This document shows positions 49,648-58,658 of a stretch of DNA of 64,000 nucleotides, in pieces (within the stretch, counting starts at the first letter, position 1; every line of letters begins with the position of its first letter). Both the position numbers and the translations under genes were made by a program. Below the pieces are notes generated by a model, which did not search any database, was not told where the DNA came from, and saw only the letters and a program-made list of their open reading frames with translations. Origin of the DNA: Methylorubrum aminovorans (GTDB lineage: Bacteria > Pseudomonadota > Alphaproteobacteria > Rhizobiales > Beijerinckiaceae). The stretch lies in NCBI RefSeq assembly GCF_022179725.1, contig NZ_BPRC01000001.1, positions 868,001 to 932,000 of the forward strand, in the 5' to 3' direction.

Positions 49648-50085
49648 TCAGACGCCGCGGGCCGCCTCGAGTTTTGCGAGTTCCACCGCCGCGCGCAGCT
49701 CGATCTCGGCCACAAGCCCGTCGAGGCGGGGATCGCCGCTCTCCGCCATCCGCTCGGCGAGGCGGCCGGCGATGACCTGGAGGTCGCGCGTTGCCACCCG
49801 GCCGCCGATCAGTGCCGCCTTTAGCCGGTCGAGCCCGTCGAGCAGGTCGTGCCCGCGCTGCACCGAGCGGCGGCGGCGCTCCTTCTGCGCCTCGGCCCCG
49901 TCCTGCCCCTGCAGCGTGAGGAGCGCGTCGAGGCCGGTGAGCATGCCGGTCTGGCTTGCACCCGCGGTCGCGGCGCGGGGCGTTTCCTCGGTGCCGGCGG
50001 GCGCGAAGGCACCCGGCGCGGCGGCGCGGCGGGTCGCATTGAGCGCACCCGCGGCTGCAGCGGCAAAGCGTGTGTCGACGCGCAT
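49648..50085 (-). CDS. fliX: Flagellar assembly regulator FliX
   Basis: 145 aa. MRVDTRFAAAAAGALN at the N terminus and the C-terminal core LTGLDALLTLQGQDGAEAQKERRRRSVQRGHDLLDGLDRLKAALIGG match the FliX family. In Caulobacter FliX links basal-body completion to the sigma-54 activator FlbD. The ATG at 50085 gives the conserved N terminus. It is divergent from flgI, with a FlbD-like palindrome and a sigma-54-like element in the 254-base gap. Confidence 0.92.
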   Translation of the reverse strand: MRVDTRFAAAAAGALNATRRAAAPGAFAPAGTEETPRAATAGASQTGMLTGLDALLTLQGQDGAEAQKERRRRSVQRGHDLLDGLDRLKAALIGGRVATRDLQVIAGRLAERMAESGDPRLDGLVAEIELRAAVELAKLEAARGV

Positions 50086-50175
50086 GGGGGCTTGAAACCT
50101 TCTCGCGCCCCTCGATTCACGACGAGCGCTGACCCGAGAAGACATCGTCCGGTAGGGTTAAGCATGGGTAAACAG

Positions 50176-50194
50176 CCCGGCAGAAGCTGCCGGG
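50176..50194. promoter_or_regulatory. ftr-like (FlbD) palindrome upstream of flgI
   Basis: CCCGGCAGAAGCTGCCGGG is a perfect 8-bp-arm palindrome with core CGGCA-N5-TGCCG, the form of Caulobacter ftr enhancers bound by FlbD as I recall them. It lies about 100 bases upstream of the sigma-54-like -24 element at 50276. A second imperfect arm pair (CGGCAGGAAACGCTGCC) starts immediately after it. Confidence 0.6.
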
Positions 50195-50275
50195 GCGGCA
50201 GGAAACGCTGCCCCCACTCGCGCCGCCACGGCAGGGCCGCTCTGGATAAAACATCGTTCTCTCAAAGACTTGGCA

Positions 50276-50292
50276 TTTGGCACGGCCCTGGC
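50276..50292 (+). promoter_or_regulatory. Sigma-54-type -24/-12 promoter of flgI
   Basis: TTTGGCACGGCCCTGGC: GG at 50279-50280 and GC at 50291-50292 are separated by exactly 10 bases, and the -24 box TTGGCACG is a perfect match to the sigma-54 consensus; the -12 box (TGGCA) is one base off TTGCA. It lies 48 bases upstream of the flgI ATG. A near-identical element precedes flgF. Confidence 0.65.
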
Positions 50293-50339
50293 AGAGATCG
50301 TCTCGGCGCGAAGACGCCAAAACCGGTCGCCGAGTCCCG

Positions 50340-53125: not shown

Positions 53126-53899
53126 TCAGAACGGCAGCAGGATATCGACGAGCTGCTGGCCGTAGCGCGGCTGCTGCACGTCGGTGATCTGGCCGCGGCC
53201 GCCATAGGCGATGCGCGCCTGGGCGATCTTGCTCGAATCGATCGTGTTGTCGGACTCGATGTCCTCGGGCCGCACCACGCCCGCCACGATCAGCTCGCGC
53301 ACCTCGAAATTGATGCGGATCTCCTGCTTGCCCTCCACCACGAGGTTGCCGTTGGGCAGCACCTGGGTGACGACGGCGGCGACATTGGTGGTCACCGTCT
53401 CGGCGCGCTGGACCGAGCCGGCGCCGTCGCTCGACGAGGTGGAGGTGCCGTTGATGAGCTTGTCGGGCGAGATGCCGGCGGCAGCCACGCCCGCGCTGTT
53501 CTCCAGGCCGAAGGCGTTGGGCAGGCCGAACCCTTCCGCGTTGGTGCGCGAGCGCTTGGTCTCGTTGTTGAGGTTGGCCCGATCGGTGACGTTGACCTTG
53601 ACGGTGAGCAGGTCGCCGATCCGCGCCGCGCGCTGATCCTTGAAGAACGCGCGCGAGCCCGTGCGCCACAGGGAGTTCGGCGCGTAGGAGACGGGGGCGA
53701 CGTCCGGCATCGCCATGCGCACCGGCCGGTAGCCGGGCTGGGCCGTCGGGTCCTCGATCGCCGAGAGCGTCGGGGTGGCCCCCACCTGCGAGAGCCGGTC
53801 CACGGTATTGCAGGCGCCGAGCGGCGCGAGCGCCAGGATCACGGCGAGGCGGGGCAGGGGGCGGGCAAGGGAGTGGAGAGAGGGGCGGCGAGCGGTCAT
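53126..53899 (-). CDS. flgH: Flagellar L-ring lipoprotein FlgH
   Basis: 257 aa. Lipoprotein signal LALAPLGAC (cysteine near residue 30). NSLWRTGSRAFFKDQRAARIGDLLTVKVNVTDRANLNNETKRSR and VLPNGNLVVEGKQEIRINFEVRELIVAGVVRPEDI are the FlgH signatures. Forms the outer-membrane L ring. Last gene of the flgF-flgG-flgA-flgH unit. Confidence 0.96.
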   Translation of the reverse strand: MTARRPSLHSLARPLPRLAVILALAPLGACNTVDRLSQVGATPTLSAIEDPTAQPGYRPVRMAMPDVAPVSYAPNSLWRTGSRAFFKDQRAARIGDLLTVKVNVTDRANLNNETKRSRTNAEGFGLPNAFGLENSAGVAAAGISPDKLINGTSTSSSDGAGSVQRAETVTTNVAAVVTQVLPNGNLVVEGKQEIRINFEVRELIVAGVVRPEDIESDNTIDSSKIAQARIAYGGRGQITDVQQPRYGQQLVDILLPF

Positions 53900-53963
53900 C
53901 GGAAGGCTCCGGCGCAGGCGAAACGGGAAGGGCGAGGGAAAGGCGAATTGAGGAGCGCGCCGC

Positions 53964-55010
53964 CTACGGGGCGGCGCTGGCCTGGAGCACGGGCTGGGGC
54001 TGAGGCACGGGGCCAACCGAGACGCGGCCGGGGCCGATCACCACGGCCTGGAGTACCTTCTTCGAGGCGCCGTTCGTCACCGAGACGCTAGCGCCGAGCC
54101 GGCCGCTCTCGTTGGCGACGCCGCGCATCGACAGCGACACGCCGGGCGTCTCGAACACGATGGCCACGCTCTCGCCGCGGGAGACGAGATCAGGCGGCGC
54201 CACGTCGCCCGAGCGCAGGACCGCGCCGGCGCTCAAGGGACGCTGCGCCACCTGGCCGGCGACCAGGCTCGGCGCGCCCTGCACGTCGGCCGGCACGGCG
54301 TCGCGCGGGCGGCGTTCGAGGCTGAGGTCGGCGCTGGCGATCGCCTCGCCGCGATGGAGGCTGCGGGTCAGCACCGCCACCTCGCGGGTCTCGACCGCCA
54401 CGCCCGCGACCCGGAGCGAAGCCTGCCGTTCGCCGAGCACGATGAGGCCGGCGACCCGGCGGGAACGTGGATCGTAGGTGACATCGACCGCCGCCGCCTG
54501 CCCGTCGAGGTCGAGCGGCGCGAGCAGAACCGGCGCGTCGCCGTCGAGCCGCACGGACAGCGCCTTGGCGTCGAGGCCGTAGCCGGTCTCGAGCGCGCGC
54601 TTCAGCGCCGCCTCGATCTCCGGCGGCCCGACCCGGCGGGCGGCGCGCTGCACGGTGACCTGTACGCGGCCGCCGGTCTCGATCCCGGTGAGCCCGAGGG
54701 CCGCGACCGATTCGATGATGCGGCGGGCCTGGATCGTGCCGATGGCCCCGAGGGCGGGCGCGCGGAACAGGGGACGGGCGGCCAGCTCGGCCGGCACGCC
54801 CTCGACGAGGTCACCGAGGCTCAGCGTGTCGCCGCGGGCGGTCACGTCCCCGCGCAGGCGCAGCGGGTTGCCGGCGGCCATCAGTGGCAGGGCGAACAGG
54901 GTCACCGCCATGAAAGCGGCCAGCGCGACGACGGTTCGGCCGATCACGCCGCGGGACAGGGGGGTGACGGCCGGAGGAGCGGAGCGGCGGATCGGCTTGA
55001 GGGCGTGCAT
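53964..55010 (-). CDS. flgA: Flagellar P-ring assembly chaperone FlgA
   Basis: 348 aa. The signal/anchor (TVVALAAFMAVTLFALPLMA) is followed by SAF-type domains: TRSLHRGEAIASADLSLERRPRDAVPADVQGAPSLVAGQVAQRPLSAGAVLRSGDVAPPDLVSRGESVAIVFETPGVSLSMRGVANESGRLGASVSVTN. It is longer than E. coli FlgA because of an N-terminal domain. ATG at 55010, directly inside a GTG at 55013. Assists P-ring formation. Confidence 0.93.
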   Translation of the reverse strand: MHALKPIRRSAPPAVTPLSRGVIGRTVVALAAFMAVTLFALPLMAAGNPLRLRGDVTARGDTLSLGDLVEGVPAELAARPLFRAPALGAIGTIQARRIIESVAALGLTGIETGGRVQVTVQRAARRVGPPEIEAALKRALETGYGLDAKALSVRLDGDAPVLLAPLDLDGQAAAVDVTYDPRSRRVAGLIVLGERQASLRVAGVAVETREVAVLTRSLHRGEAIASADLSLERRPRDAVPADVQGAPSLVAGQVAQRPLSAGAVLRSGDVAPPDLVSRGESVAIVFETPGVSLSMRGVANESGRLGASVSVTNGASKKVLQAVVIGPGRVSVGPVPQPQPVLQASAAP

Positions 55011-55024
55011 CACGGGTCCGATCC

Positions 55025-55816
55025 TCAGCCGCGGAACATCTGCGAGGTGGTGGAGAGCATCTGGTCGGCGGCGGTGACGACCTTCGAGTTCATCTCGTAG
55101 GCGCGCTGCGCCGCGATCAGCGACGAGATCTCGGTGACCGCGTTGACGTTGGCCTCTTCGAGGTAGCGTTGCTGCAGGTTGCCGAAGCCTTCCGAGCCCG
55201 GCAGTCCGGTGATGGCCGGGCCCGAGGCCGCGGTCTCGACGAACAGGTTGTCGCCGATCGACTCGAGGCCGACCTTGTTGACGAAGCGGGCGAGCTGGAA
55301 CTGGCCGAGCGCCTGCGGCGCGGTCTGGCCCGGCATCGTCGCCTGCACCGCGCCGGTGGCCGAGATCGTCACCGAGGTCGCGGTGTTGGGTACCGTCACG
55401 CCGGGATCGAGCAGGTAGCCGTCGCGGGTGACCATCTGGCCTTGCGCGTCGAGATCGAACGAGCCGTCGCGGCTGTAGGCGGTGCGTCCATCGGGCAGGC
55501 GGACGCGGAAGAGCCCCTCGCCGCGGATGGCGACGTCGTAGTCCTTCTCGGTCTGGGCCAGCGGCCCCTGGTTCATCGCGCGGGCGGTGGAGGTGGTCTT
55601 CACGCCCGAGCCCAGCGCAAGTCCGGCCGGAAGGATCGTGTTCTGGTCCGAGGTCGAGGAGCCAGAGCGGCGCAGGTTCTGATAGAGCAGATCCTGGAAA
55701 TGCACCTGCTGGCGCTTGTAGCCGGTGGTGCGCAGGTTCGCGATGTTGTTCGAGATGACCTGAACGTTGAGTTCCTGGGCCGCCATGCCCGTGGCGGCGG
55801 CATAGAGGGCGCGCAT
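55025..55816 (-). CDS. flgG: Flagellar distal rod protein FlgG
   Basis: 263 aa. MRALYAAATGMAAQELNVQVISNNIANLRTTGYKRQQVHFQDLLYQ at the N terminus and EEANVNAVTEISSLIAAQRAYEMNSKVVTAADQMLSTTSQM at the C terminus are the rod/hook signatures; length and C-terminal block identify FlgG. 26 bases downstream of flgF. Confidence 0.97.
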   Translation of the reverse strand: MRALYAAATGMAAQELNVQVISNNIANLRTTGYKRQQVHFQDLLYQNLRRSGSSTSDQNTILPAGLALGSGVKTTSTARAMNQGPLAQTEKDYDVAIRGEGLFRVRLPDGRTAYSRDGSFDLDAQGQMVTRDGYLLDPGVTVPNTATSVTISATGAVQATMPGQTAPQALGQFQLARFVNKVGLESIGDNLFVETAASGPAITGLPGSEGFGNLQQRYLEEANVNAVTEISSLIAAQRAYEMNSKVVTAADQMLSTTSQMFRG

Positions 55817-56619: not shown

Positions 56620-56637
56620 CCGCAGGGGCCGTGCCAA
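56620..56637 (-). promoter_or_regulatory. Sigma-54-type -24/-12 promoter of flgF
   Basis: On the minus strand TTGGCACGGCCCCTGCGG: GG and GC are exactly 10 bases apart and the -24 half is a perfect TTGGCACG. The -12 half reads CTGC rather than TTGC. It is about 37 bases upstream of the flgF ATG. The first 12 bases are identical to the flgI element at 50276. Confidence 0.65.
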
Positions 56638-56656
56638 TCGCGGCCGATTGGTTTTT
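56634..56656 (+). terminator. Compact hairpin plus T-run in the flgF-fliL intergenic region
   Basis: CCAATCG-CGGC-CGATTGG followed by TTTTT (56652-56656): a 7-bp stem with 4-base loop and a T-run, the form of a plus-strand intrinsic terminator, although no plus-strand gene precedes it. It overlaps the -24 box of the flgF promoter, so it may instead reflect a binding site. Confidence 0.45.
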
Positions 56657-56733
56657 ACCCTAACAGACAATGACTTGCCTCGATCACACCTCCGCAGGGG
56701 CACCGGTCCGCCTTGCGCCGGCGGCAAGTCCGA

Positions 56734-56752
56734 CCCGGCAAGTTCTGCCGCC
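56734..56752. promoter_or_regulatory. ftr-like (FlbD) site between flgF and fliL
   Basis: CCCGGCAAGTTCTGCCGCC contains CGGCA-N5-TGCCG, the same core and spacing as the element upstream of flgI. It is about 100 bases upstream of the flgF sigma-54-type element and abuts the CtrA box of fliL on the other side, so one site could serve both directions. Confidence 0.55.
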
Positions 56753-56768
56753 TTAACCGAGGGTTAAC
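56753..56768. promoter_or_regulatory. CtrA box upstream of fliL
   Basis: TTAA-CCGAGGG-TTAAC matches the CtrA consensus TTAA-N7-TTAAC exactly. It lies 90 bases upstream of the fliL ATG and directly beside an ftr-like site. CtrA drives early flagellar genes in Caulobacter; fliL-fliM heads such a class II operon there. Confidence 0.7.
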
Positions 56769-56857
56769 CACGTCGGCCGAGAAGGAAGGCGAGGGGAGTG
56801 CGCCTCGCGCGCGGGCCTCGCCCCATCGTCCCGAACCGGTTTGCCGACGAGCAGCAC

Positions 56858-57376
56858 ATGGCCAAGAAGCCGAAGAAGGCGCCCGCGGCCGAGGGCGAGG
56901 AGGGCGCGGCGGAAGCGCCGAAGTCCAAGAAGAAACTCATCATCATCGCCGCCGCGGTGCTGCTCCTCGGGGGCGGCGGGGGCGGGTTCTTCTTCATGAA
57001 AAGCCGGGCGGCCCATGCCGACGCCCACGGCGAGCACGCGGCCGAGAAGGTCGATCCCAAGGCGCAGGCCGTGTTCCTCGACATGCGCGACATGATGGTC
57101 AACCTCAGCCCCGATCCCGGCGCGACCAAGGCCAATGTGCTCAAGCTGCGCGTCGCCCTGGAACTCAAGGACGCCAAGGTCGAGGCGACGGTGAAGCCGC
57201 TGATGCCGCGGGTGGAGGATGCCTTCCAGACCTACCTGCGCGAGATCCGGGCCAGCGATCTGGCCGGCTCCACCGGCCTCTATCGCCTGCGCGAGGAGCT
57301 GCTGCGGCGGGTCAACATCGCCCTGCATCCGGCCAAGGCCGAGGCGGTGCTGTTCAAGGACGTGATCGTCCAGTGA
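56858..57376 (+). CDS. fliL: Flagellar basal body-associated protein FliL
   Basis: 172 aa. A charged N terminus (MAKKPKKAPAAEGEEGAAEAPKSKKK), one transmembrane helix (IIIAAAVLLLGGGGGGFFF) and a periplasmic domain (VFLDMRDMMVNLSPDPGATKANVLKLRVALELKDAKVEATVKPLMPRVEDAFQTYLREI) typical of FliL. It supports stator function. An exact CtrA box lies upstream. Confidence 0.94.
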   Translation: MAKKPKKAPAAEGEEGAAEAPKSKKKLIIIAAAVLLLGGGGGGFFFMKSRAAHADAHGEHAAEKVDPKAQAVFLDMRDMMVNLSPDPGATKANVLKLRVALELKDAKVEATVKPLMPRVEDAFQTYLREIRASDLAGSTGLYRLREELLRRVNIALHPAKAEAVLFKDVIVQ

Positions 57377-57440: not shown

Positions 57441-58658
57441 ATGACCGGCCCCGAAGACGAGCTGGACGACGATTGGGCGGCCGCCTTTGCCGAGCAAGGC
57501 GAAGGCGGTGGCGGCGACGCGTCGCTGGCCGAGGAATGGGGCGCGGCGCTCGCCGAACAGGGCACGACCAAGAGCGCGGGCGACGTCGCCGCCGAGTGGG
57601 CGACGATGATCGAGGACGGGGAGACCGAGAATCTCCCCGAACTCGCCGGCAACGACCGCATCCTGAACCAGGACGAGATCGACGGCGTCCTCGGCTTCTC
57701 GCTGCGCGAACTCTCCGCCTCCGGCGCGGGAGGCGTACGCGCCATCGTCGATTCGGGTGTCGTCCAGTACGAACGCCTGCCGATGCTGGAAATCGTCTTC
57801 GACCGGATGATCCGGTTGCTGTCGACCAGCCTCCGCAACTTCTTCCAGGACAACGTCGAGGTGACCCTCGACAACATCACCTCGGTCCGGTTCGGCGACT
57901 ACCTCAACGCGATCCCGCTGCCGACCCTGCTCGGCGTGTTCAAAGCGGATGCCTGGGAAGGCTCGGGCCTCGTCACCGTCGAGCAGACGCTGGCCTACTC
58001 GACCATGGACCTGCTGCTCGGGGGCAAGCGCGGCGGCTCATCGAGCCGTCTCGACGGGCGGCCCTTCACCACGATCGAGATGAGCCTCGTGCGCCGCCTC
58101 GTCGAAATCATCCTCACCGATCTCGAACTCTCGTTCCAGCCGCTCTCGCCGGTGCGGTTCGGTATCGACCGCATCGAGACCAACCCGCGCTTCGCCACCA
58201 TCACCCGGCCCGGCAACGCCGCCATCCTCATCACGCTCAAGCTCGACATGGACGGCCGCGGCGGCGGGATGCAGATCCTGTTCCCCTACGCGACGATCGA
58301 GCCGATCCGCGACCTGCTCATGCAGAGCTTCATGGGCGAGCGGCTCGGGCGCGACCAGGTCTGGGAGAGCCACCTCGCCACCGAGATCTGGCAGGCGGAC
58401 GTGGAGATGGAGGCGGTGCTGCACGAGGTGACGCTGCCCCTGAAGCGCGTGCTCAACCTCAAGGTCGGCGACACGCTGATGTTCGACCGCAAGCCGACCG
58501 ACCTCATCACCGTGCGCTGCGGCGACTGGGCGCTGACGCAGGGGCGGATCGGCCGGATCGACGATGCCATCGCGGTGCAGGTCGCCCGCCCCCTGCGGCA
58601 GTCGCGCACGACGCTGCAGGCCTACGAAATCTCCATGCAGAACCGTAACGACGGCTGA
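57441..58658 (+). CDS. fliM: Flagellar motor switch protein FliM
   Basis: 405 aa. An acidic N-terminal extension of about 70 residues precedes the CheY-binding-type motif ILNQDEIDGVLGF (near residue 73). The middle CheC-like domain and a C-terminal surface-of-antigens domain follow (RVLNLKVGDTLMFDRKPTDLITVRCGDWALTQGRIGRIDDAIAVQV). Forms the C ring and binds phosphorylated CheY. The N-terminal extension is longer than in enterics. Confidence 0.95.
   Translation: MTGPEDELDDDWAAAFAEQGEGGGGDASLAEEWGAALAEQGTTKSAGDVAAEWATMIEDGETENLPELAGNDRILNQDEIDGVLGFSLRELSASGAGGVRAIVDSGVVQYERLPMLEIVFDRMIRLLSTSLRNFFQDNVEVTLDNITSVRFGDYLNAIPLPTLLGVFKADAWEGSGLVTVEQTLAYSTMDLLLGGKRGGSSSRLDGRPFTTIEMSLVRRLVEIILTDLELSFQPLSPVRFGIDRIETNPRFATITRPGNAAILITLKLDMDGRGGGMQILFPYATIEPIRDLLMQSFMGERLGRDQVWESHLATEIWQADVEMEAVLHEVTLPLKRVLNLKVGDTLMFDRKPTDLITVRCGDWALTQGRIGRIDDAIAVQVARPLRQSRTTLQAYEISMQNRNDG

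Follow-up and report, generated by a model that had tools for sequence, protein, structure and literature searches.

Can a single regulator site, set between an early and a late flagellar operon, switch one of them on and the other off? The question is raised by the intergenic region between flgF and fliL of Methylorubrum aminovorans, which lies in the 64,000-nucleotide stretch of the 6.09-Mb genome analysed here (hereafter the window). Flagellar genes are switched on in assembly order, and the turn-down of early genes during late-gene onset is, to our knowledge, known mainly from Caulobacter. In that system, according to the available portions of PMC3096577 and PMC3930126, CtrA activates the class II genes and FlbD, sigma-54 and IHF the class III genes, FliX acts as a checkpoint, and ftr sites are used by FlbD both ways, for activation and for repression. 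The initial annotation of the window proposed a two-way switch of this kind, in which FlbD, bound at an ftr-like palindrome (FTR) touching the CtrA box of fliL, would activate the late operon beginning with flgF and at the same time repress the early operon fliL-fliM. The comparisons presented here suggest that the whole is best explained as a divergent early/late control region, a reading to which we assign a probability of about 0.8. Predicted sites of the two regulators fit into 150 bp here, and the methylotroph lineage concerned includes laboratory strains. The region is a good place for tests of the early-to-late handover.

The two genes are separated by 274 bp between the flgF start (ATG 56583, minus strand) and the fliL start (ATG 56858, plus strand). 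The first of them, flgF, heads the late operon flgF-flgG-flgA-flgH, which lies entirely on the minus strand; the NCBIfam matches for this operon and for fliL-fliM are all above cut-off, in agreement with the gene order given by the initial annotation. The minus-strand sigma-54 element, the ftr-like site and the exact CtrA box that it had listed were all located between the two genes (Table 1), and its statement that the ftr-like site touches the CtrA box is nearly exact, with 2 bp between the 15-bp palindrome and the box, or 3 bp when the GGCA-N5-TGCC core is taken as the border. An additional FTR half-site upstream of the palindrome had gone unnoticed. At 56781, within the block that holds the uncertain -10 candidate of fliL, the window has a G where fliL regions across the order conserve an A.

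Table 1. Genes and predicted control elements of the two divergent flagellar regions, with positions in the window
Feature	Position	Strand	Basis or remark
flgF, 246 aa	55843-56583	-	ORF list; NCBIfam FlgF NF009331, 396 bits (cut-off 347)
flgG	55025-55816	-	NCBIfam FlgG above cut-off
flgA	53964-55013	-	Start of the longest ORF; NCBIfam above cut-off
flgH	53126-54016	-	Start of the longest ORF; NCBIfam above cut-off
fliL	56858-57376	+	NCBIfam NF009420 above cut-off; Pfam PF03748
fliM	57441-58658	+	Pfam FliM and FliMN_C; NCBIfam TIGR01397 above cut-off
Predicted sigma-54 (-24/-12) promoter of flgF, TTGGCACGGCCCCTGCGG	56620-56637	-	GG-N10-GC kept in 81/81 regions
T-rich tract then CAA-N4-TTG, tentative candidate IHF bend site	56650-56678	.	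Weak conservation
Upstream FTR half-site CGGCA	56722-56726	+	Conserved; 14 bp before the full palindrome
FTR palindrome CGGCA-N5-TGCCG, predicted FlbD site	56736-56750	.	GGCA-N5-TGCC core in 81/81 regions
Predicted CtrA box of fliL, TTAA-N7-TTAAC	56753-56768	+	TTAA-N7-TTAA in 81/81 regions
Candidate -10 of fliL, uncertain	56779-56784	+	Moderately conserved block, 73-91% at 56779-56782
fliX, early side	49648-50145	-	Pfam PF10768; flgI is the divergent late gene
CtrA-like box of fliX, TTTA-N7-TTAA read towards fliX	50158-50172	-	One mismatch
FTR palindrome between fliX and flgI	50178-50192	.	Precedes the box, with 6 bp from core to box
Candidate sigma-54 promoter of flgI, TGGCACGGCCCTGGCA	50278-50293	+	Score of 10 or more in 30/31 relatives

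Conservation was assessed in the window together with 80 relatives, the best 80 of 86 picked by FliL similarity. Nearly all of these belong to Methylobacterium or Methylorubrum, which also supply the closest FliL relatives (97-99% identity in the best five), and the remainder are one Bosea, two Salinarimonas and a few MAGs. The initial annotation had named the conservation of its three elements in related genomes as a check, and all three are present, at rigid spacing, in each of the 81 regions, which come from related genomes and hence do not amount to 81 independent trials. The FTR core and TTAA-N7-TTAA were found throughout, and the sigma-54 GG-N10-GC was in every case placed 119-123 bp from the FTR centre; the full 15-mer CGGCA-N5-TGCCG was found in 48 of the 81. 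Mean column identity is 99-100% in the sigma-54 element, the FTR arms, the CtrA halves and the upstream CGGCA half-site (99.5% for the last), and falls to 76% in the spacer between the CtrA halves, 64% at the centre of the FTR and 50% elsewhere. Outside the motifs, 73 of the 80 relatives are less than 60% identical to the window. The sigma-54-to-FTR length averages 120.5 with a standard deviation (sd) of 0.65, and the FTR-to-CtrA length, with a gap of 3 bp in 74 regions and 4 bp in 7, has an sd of 0.28; the flanks are loose, with an sd of 10.1 from the flgF start to the sigma-54 element (n=81) and 13.6 from the CtrA box to the fliL start (n=62). The signal at the candidate IHF site is weak: A56669, T56675 and T56676 are conserved at 93-100%, and CAA-N4-TTR occurs in 29 of the 81 regions as against 1.25 in a simple base shuffle.

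Of the three elements taken one by one, only the CtrA box clearly exceeds chance in the window, and the palindrome does so modestly. In dinucleotide-preserving shuffles of the window, 0.00 CtrA boxes were expected against the one found, and 0.26 palindromes against the two found; 2 of 100 shuffles gave as many. The second palindrome is located at fliX/flgI. No excess was seen in the window for the sigma-54 pattern when up to one mismatch was allowed (2 found, 3.97 expected). For the combination of FTR and CtrA box the count exceeds chance genome-wide: in pattern searches, the composite GGCA-N5-TGCC-N0..12-TTAA-N7-TTAA matched three times, at two genomic places, and its reversed control not at all.

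GGCA-N5-TGCC is predicted to be a site for FlbD from the Caulobacter literature and, here, by association. The genome encodes FlbD (NCBIfam equivalog NF050807, 796 bits, cut-off 750), as the last gene of a fliF-fliG-fliH-fliN-flbD cluster, and CtrA (NCBIfam equivalog NF045991, 422 bits, cut-off 350); there is one RpoN match in the genome, and FliX is identified by Pfam PF10768 at 120 bits, above the cut-off of that model, and scores below the NCBIfam equivalog cut-offs. The palindrome might instead be the site of another protein, or a product of chance. The assignment to FlbD is a predicted one, the palindrome by itself shows no enrichment in the whole genome (44 sites, 58 for the reversed pattern), and a lone FTR beside ccrM is confined to a small minority of loci; yet a core conserved in every one of the 81 regions at a fixed distance from the sigma-54 element, together with the tight association of the composite with FliX and flagellar genes described below, makes such an origin very improbable.

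The FTR beside ccrM, at C7:84269, precedes by 88 bp an ORF for a CcrM-like methyltransferase that scores below the NCBIfam CcrM cut-off; it was considered as a tie between FlbD and the cell cycle and rejected: 30 genomes of the family were searched, and among the 28 ccrM-like loci scanned an FTR was present in 2, that of the genome under study included. The palindrome is probably there by chance. Elsewhere in the genome, contig C19 (1130, 40659 and 50231) carries another FliL-like gene, together with two regulators of the OmpR type whose N-terminal half is unusual and which may be FtcR-like; one of the two regulators was scanned against NCBIfam and gave no match above cut-off. Together these genes may be part of a second flagellar system.

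Across the order, the FTR-CtrA composite was found in 198 of 397 genomes, as compared with 4 for the reversed control (counted by eye), and FliX in 228 of the same 397. Both were present in 189 genomes, the composite only in 9, FliX only in 39 and neither in 160, which corresponds to an odds ratio of 86 when relatedness is ignored. Locus annotation covered 29 composite loci among the matches listed; 28 of these are flagellar, at flhA, flgB, fliX/flgI or fliL/flgF, and the other gave no match to the query proteins.

The fliL regions themselves were surveyed at two depths. For the order, 52 of 108 regions were fetched, one of them ended by a contig end, and a divergent flgF was present in 51 of the 52. 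Within these 51, a sigma-54 score of 10 or more was reached in 48, the exact FTR core was found in 36 and the exact CtrA box in 4, and an FTR with, no more than 25 bp after it, a box of at most one mismatch was found in 18. In 50 of the 51 there is a TTAAC half-site, usually as GTTAACC, a count made without a chance control; control of fliL by CtrA is thus likely across the order. For the class, 80 of 180 genomes with FliL were examined, one per family, of which 18 gave no FlgF match; flgF is divergent from fliL in 62 of the 80 families, and these 62 regions include 56 with a sigma-54 score of 10 or more, 33 with the exact FTR core and 3 with the exact CtrA box. Tandem FTRs 14 bp apart recur upstream of flgF, the offset of 14 being counted 25 times when one mismatch was tolerated in one copy.

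These surveys suggest that the sigma-54/FTR half of the arrangement, that which would serve flgF, is widespread in the class and that the tight contact with CtrA is not. As a general feature the close contact fails: among the 48 order rows with an FTR (at most one mismatch) upstream of TTAAC, 5 have 3-6 bp between FTR and CtrA array and 43 have at least 10 bp, most often 15-16 bp (14 rows). By this comparison the near-contact of 3-4 bp is largely lineage-specific, being found in the lineage of the window and a few others. In several families the CtrA half-sites at fliL repeat every 11 bp. Steps of about 11 bp are also favoured in the FTR-CtrA distances of 21 families (p 0.0003 against a uniform null), a phasing that was set aside as exploratory because the half-sites themselves repeat every 11 bp and the families are related.

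The FTR might serve flgF alone, and its nearness to the CtrA box would then be compact packing of independent sites. The occurrence of the sigma-54/FTR pair far beyond the abutting lineage, with the wider gap in most order rows, speaks for such packing, and the place of the FTR at fliL is also unlike the -10 place that it takes at other early promoters (see below). A 3-bp gap that is nearly constant over 81 regions is less readily accommodated, as is the close gap kept at fliX/flgI; the 11-bp steps point the same way, confounded as they are by half-site arrays and shared ancestry. We regard service to flgF alone as a serious candidate, at odds distinctly below even.

The second palindrome of the window belongs to a second divergent early/late region, that between fliX and flgI (50146-50293), where FlgI scores above the NCBIfam subfamily cut-off; FliX is, in Caulobacter, a regulator that partners FlbD. 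The fetched DNA of 31 of the 80 relatives contained both genes and was compared, 49 having been fetched without fliX or flgI; the FTR-box gap is 6 in 25 of the 31, and the remaining six showed no FTR/box pair at one mismatch.

A comparison of the flagellar promoters of the genome showed three types of FTR placement. In class III-type promoters served by FlbD and sigma-54, the ftr is expected about 100 bp from the sigma-54 promoter, and in the late type found here, at fliK (ahead of flgD), flgI and flgF, the FTR lies approximately 100-120 bp from the sigma-54 element. In the early type, fliF, flhA and flgB each have a CtrA box followed by an FTR exactly 10 bp downstream; fliF and flhA share the CtrA-like box TTAACGCCTCGCTAA, with one mismatch, and no sigma-54 site of score 9 or more was found in the three intergenic stretches. 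The mixed type comprises fliL/flgF and fliX/flgI, in which the FTR is upstream of the early CtrA box, on the enhancer side of the late gene. Here the likeness to the fliF promoter of Caulobacter drawn by the initial annotation breaks down, in that the FTRs of fliF, flhA and flgB in this genome are downstream of the box and that of fliL is upstream. None of the 81 regions has an exact FTR in the 50 bp that follow the fliL box; 2 have one with a single mismatch there.

Counted from the first T of the last TTAA, the downstream FTR of fliF, flhA and flgB covers positions 14-26. Across the order, fliL regions share at position 17 a conserved A (24 of 27 rows), which we take, with some uncertainty given the G of the window, as part of the -10; if this is correct, the downstream FTR should therefore cover the -10. 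The spacing of 10 bp between CtrA box and FTR was found at 11 of 11 flhA loci of other genomes and at six of seven flgB loci, that of the present genome included, with 9 bp at the seventh; one further flgB locus, from the annotation of composite loci, also has 10 bp. It was the composite pattern itself (gap 0-12) that led to the flhA and flgB loci in other genomes, and therefore the constant spacing, rather than the presence of the pair, is the evidence. The FTR that follows the CtrA-like box of fliF and flhA is likely an off-switch operated by FlbD.

The intergenic region of flgB and a fliO-like gene has the order FTR-CtrA-FTR (C1:422221-422276), its upstream FTR abutting the box with a gap of 3. 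This upstream copy was considered as support for repression but not made main evidence, being absent from all six related flgB loci that gave a reading, out of seven. The downstream FTR at flgB recurs in other genomes.

Taken as a single claim, these placements may follow a position rule. At early operons with no sigma-54-dependent late operon next to them, the FTR would act as an off-switch, placed over the -10 at a constant 10 bp beyond the CtrA box. At early operons divergent from a late one, it would precede the box and serve the late side as its enhancer; some lineages would have it pressed against the CtrA box, coupling the handover on one face of the DNA. We consider this rule only just short of an even bet. 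The FTR geometry hints that FlbD obeys a rule like that of CtrA in Caulobacter, for which the available part of PMC4287350 describes activation from a location at -35 and repression from one at -10. If the rule is true, sequence alone would tell which early genes are repressed by FlbD, and flgF/fliL would be a natural place for testing the coupling of early and late expression.

As a divergent early/late control region, the flgF/fliL locus would work as follows. Early in assembly, CtrA would bind its box and drive fliL-fliM. Once the MS-ring/switch/export stage was complete and the FliX checkpoint had been passed, as in Caulobacter, FlbD would bind the FTR, taking both the full site and the half-site at 56722, and from there would activate the sigma-54 promoter of flgF-flgG-flgA-flgH approximately 120 bp away, perhaps helped by a bend at the IHF-like site. 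We infer from sequence FlbD as the binder, the order of these events and any effect on fliL. Of the two halves of the switch put forward in the initial annotation, the use of the ftr as an enhancer for flgF is the better supported: the fixed sigma-54 distance and a layout that recurs across families argue for it, and that part of the proposal stands. Repression of fliL, the other part, is only possible.

In Methylobacterium and its kin the FTR and the CtrA box are 3-4 bp apart, and therefore FlbD and CtrA probably influence each other when bound there; both the contact and its constancy speak for such mutual influence. Three points count against a simple repressor like that proposed for fliF, flhA and flgB: the FTR is upstream of the box, no exact FTR follows the box at fliL, and the two sites are more loosely spaced in other lineages. 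That binding of FlbD at the FTR lowers fliL expression is, in our judgement, somewhat under an even chance.

The full two-way switch goes further, in that FlbD at the one FTR would activate flgF and also shut fliL off by excluding CtrA. It would account for the abutment in all 81 regions and for the like layout, with a gap of 6, at fliX/flgI in 25 of 31 relatives; it has a precedent in the repression of early genes by FlbD in Caulobacter, as described in accessible sections of PMC3930126 and PMC3096577; and the upstream FTR at flgB of this genome abuts its box (gap 3) with no divergent sigma-54 site scoring 9 or more. Set against this, the early promoters that have no late neighbour, fliF, flhA and flgB, carry their FTR downstream, over the expected -10; fliL has an exact downstream FTR in 0 of 81 regions; the upstream FTR of flgB is seen in 0 of six related loci, and abutment is missing in most order rows. 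On balance we hold the full switch to be rather more doubtful than probable, and possible above all in Methylobacterium and its kin.

The same contact could also work in reverse, with CtrA on the fliL box blocking FlbD from the FTR so that flgF would stay off while CtrA occupancy was high. The anatomy would be identical to that of the two-way switch, and the conserved upstream half-site would then be the FTR half farthest from the box. In most order rows, however, the FTR is too far from the box for exclusion, and we consider such a gate unlikely.

The divergent early/late control region thus described can be set against known systems. The open-licence literature searched yielded no paper dealing with FlbD in Methylobacterium or with an FTR/CtrA composite between fliL and flgF. 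The fliLM early promoter of Caulobacter has been studied, according to a title cited in the part of PMC7591256 available. A close parallel is the fliF promoter of Caulobacter crescentus with ftr4, which is, as here, an early flagellar promoter with an ftr and at which, as far as the accessible text describes it, FlbD represses a CtrA-dependent gene. What sets the present region apart is an FTR that precedes the CtrA box and looks towards a divergent sigma-54 promoter; at fliF of this genome, the FTR follows a one-mismatch CtrA box after 10 bp. The late side resembles the Caulobacter class III promoters, which combine a sigma-54 -24/-12 element with IHF and a distal ftr; the first and the last of these have predicted counterparts here, and IHF a tentative one. 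Divergent use of ftr sites also has a counterpart in flaN and flbG of Caulobacter, both of which are late genes, whereas one side here is an early CtrA promoter. For that pair, the title of Mullin and Newton 1993, as cited in PMC3096577, has ftr2 and ftr3 serving the divergent units.

In layout, the fliL2p-fliF2p region of the fla2 system of Rhodobacter sphaeroides is similar, being likewise a short divergent region with a CtrA box for fliL; according to the available portion of PMC6180460, CtrA drives both sides there from a single box, whereas the other side here is assigned to sigma-54 and FlbD, and flbD is reported in the same portion to be missing from the Rhodobacteraceae compared. We rate the flgF/fliL region as a conserved variation on the known Caulobacter logic. 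Its new and testable part is the FTR position rule, in which an FTR over the -10 would indicate repression and an FTR upstream of the CtrA box a divergent late operon.
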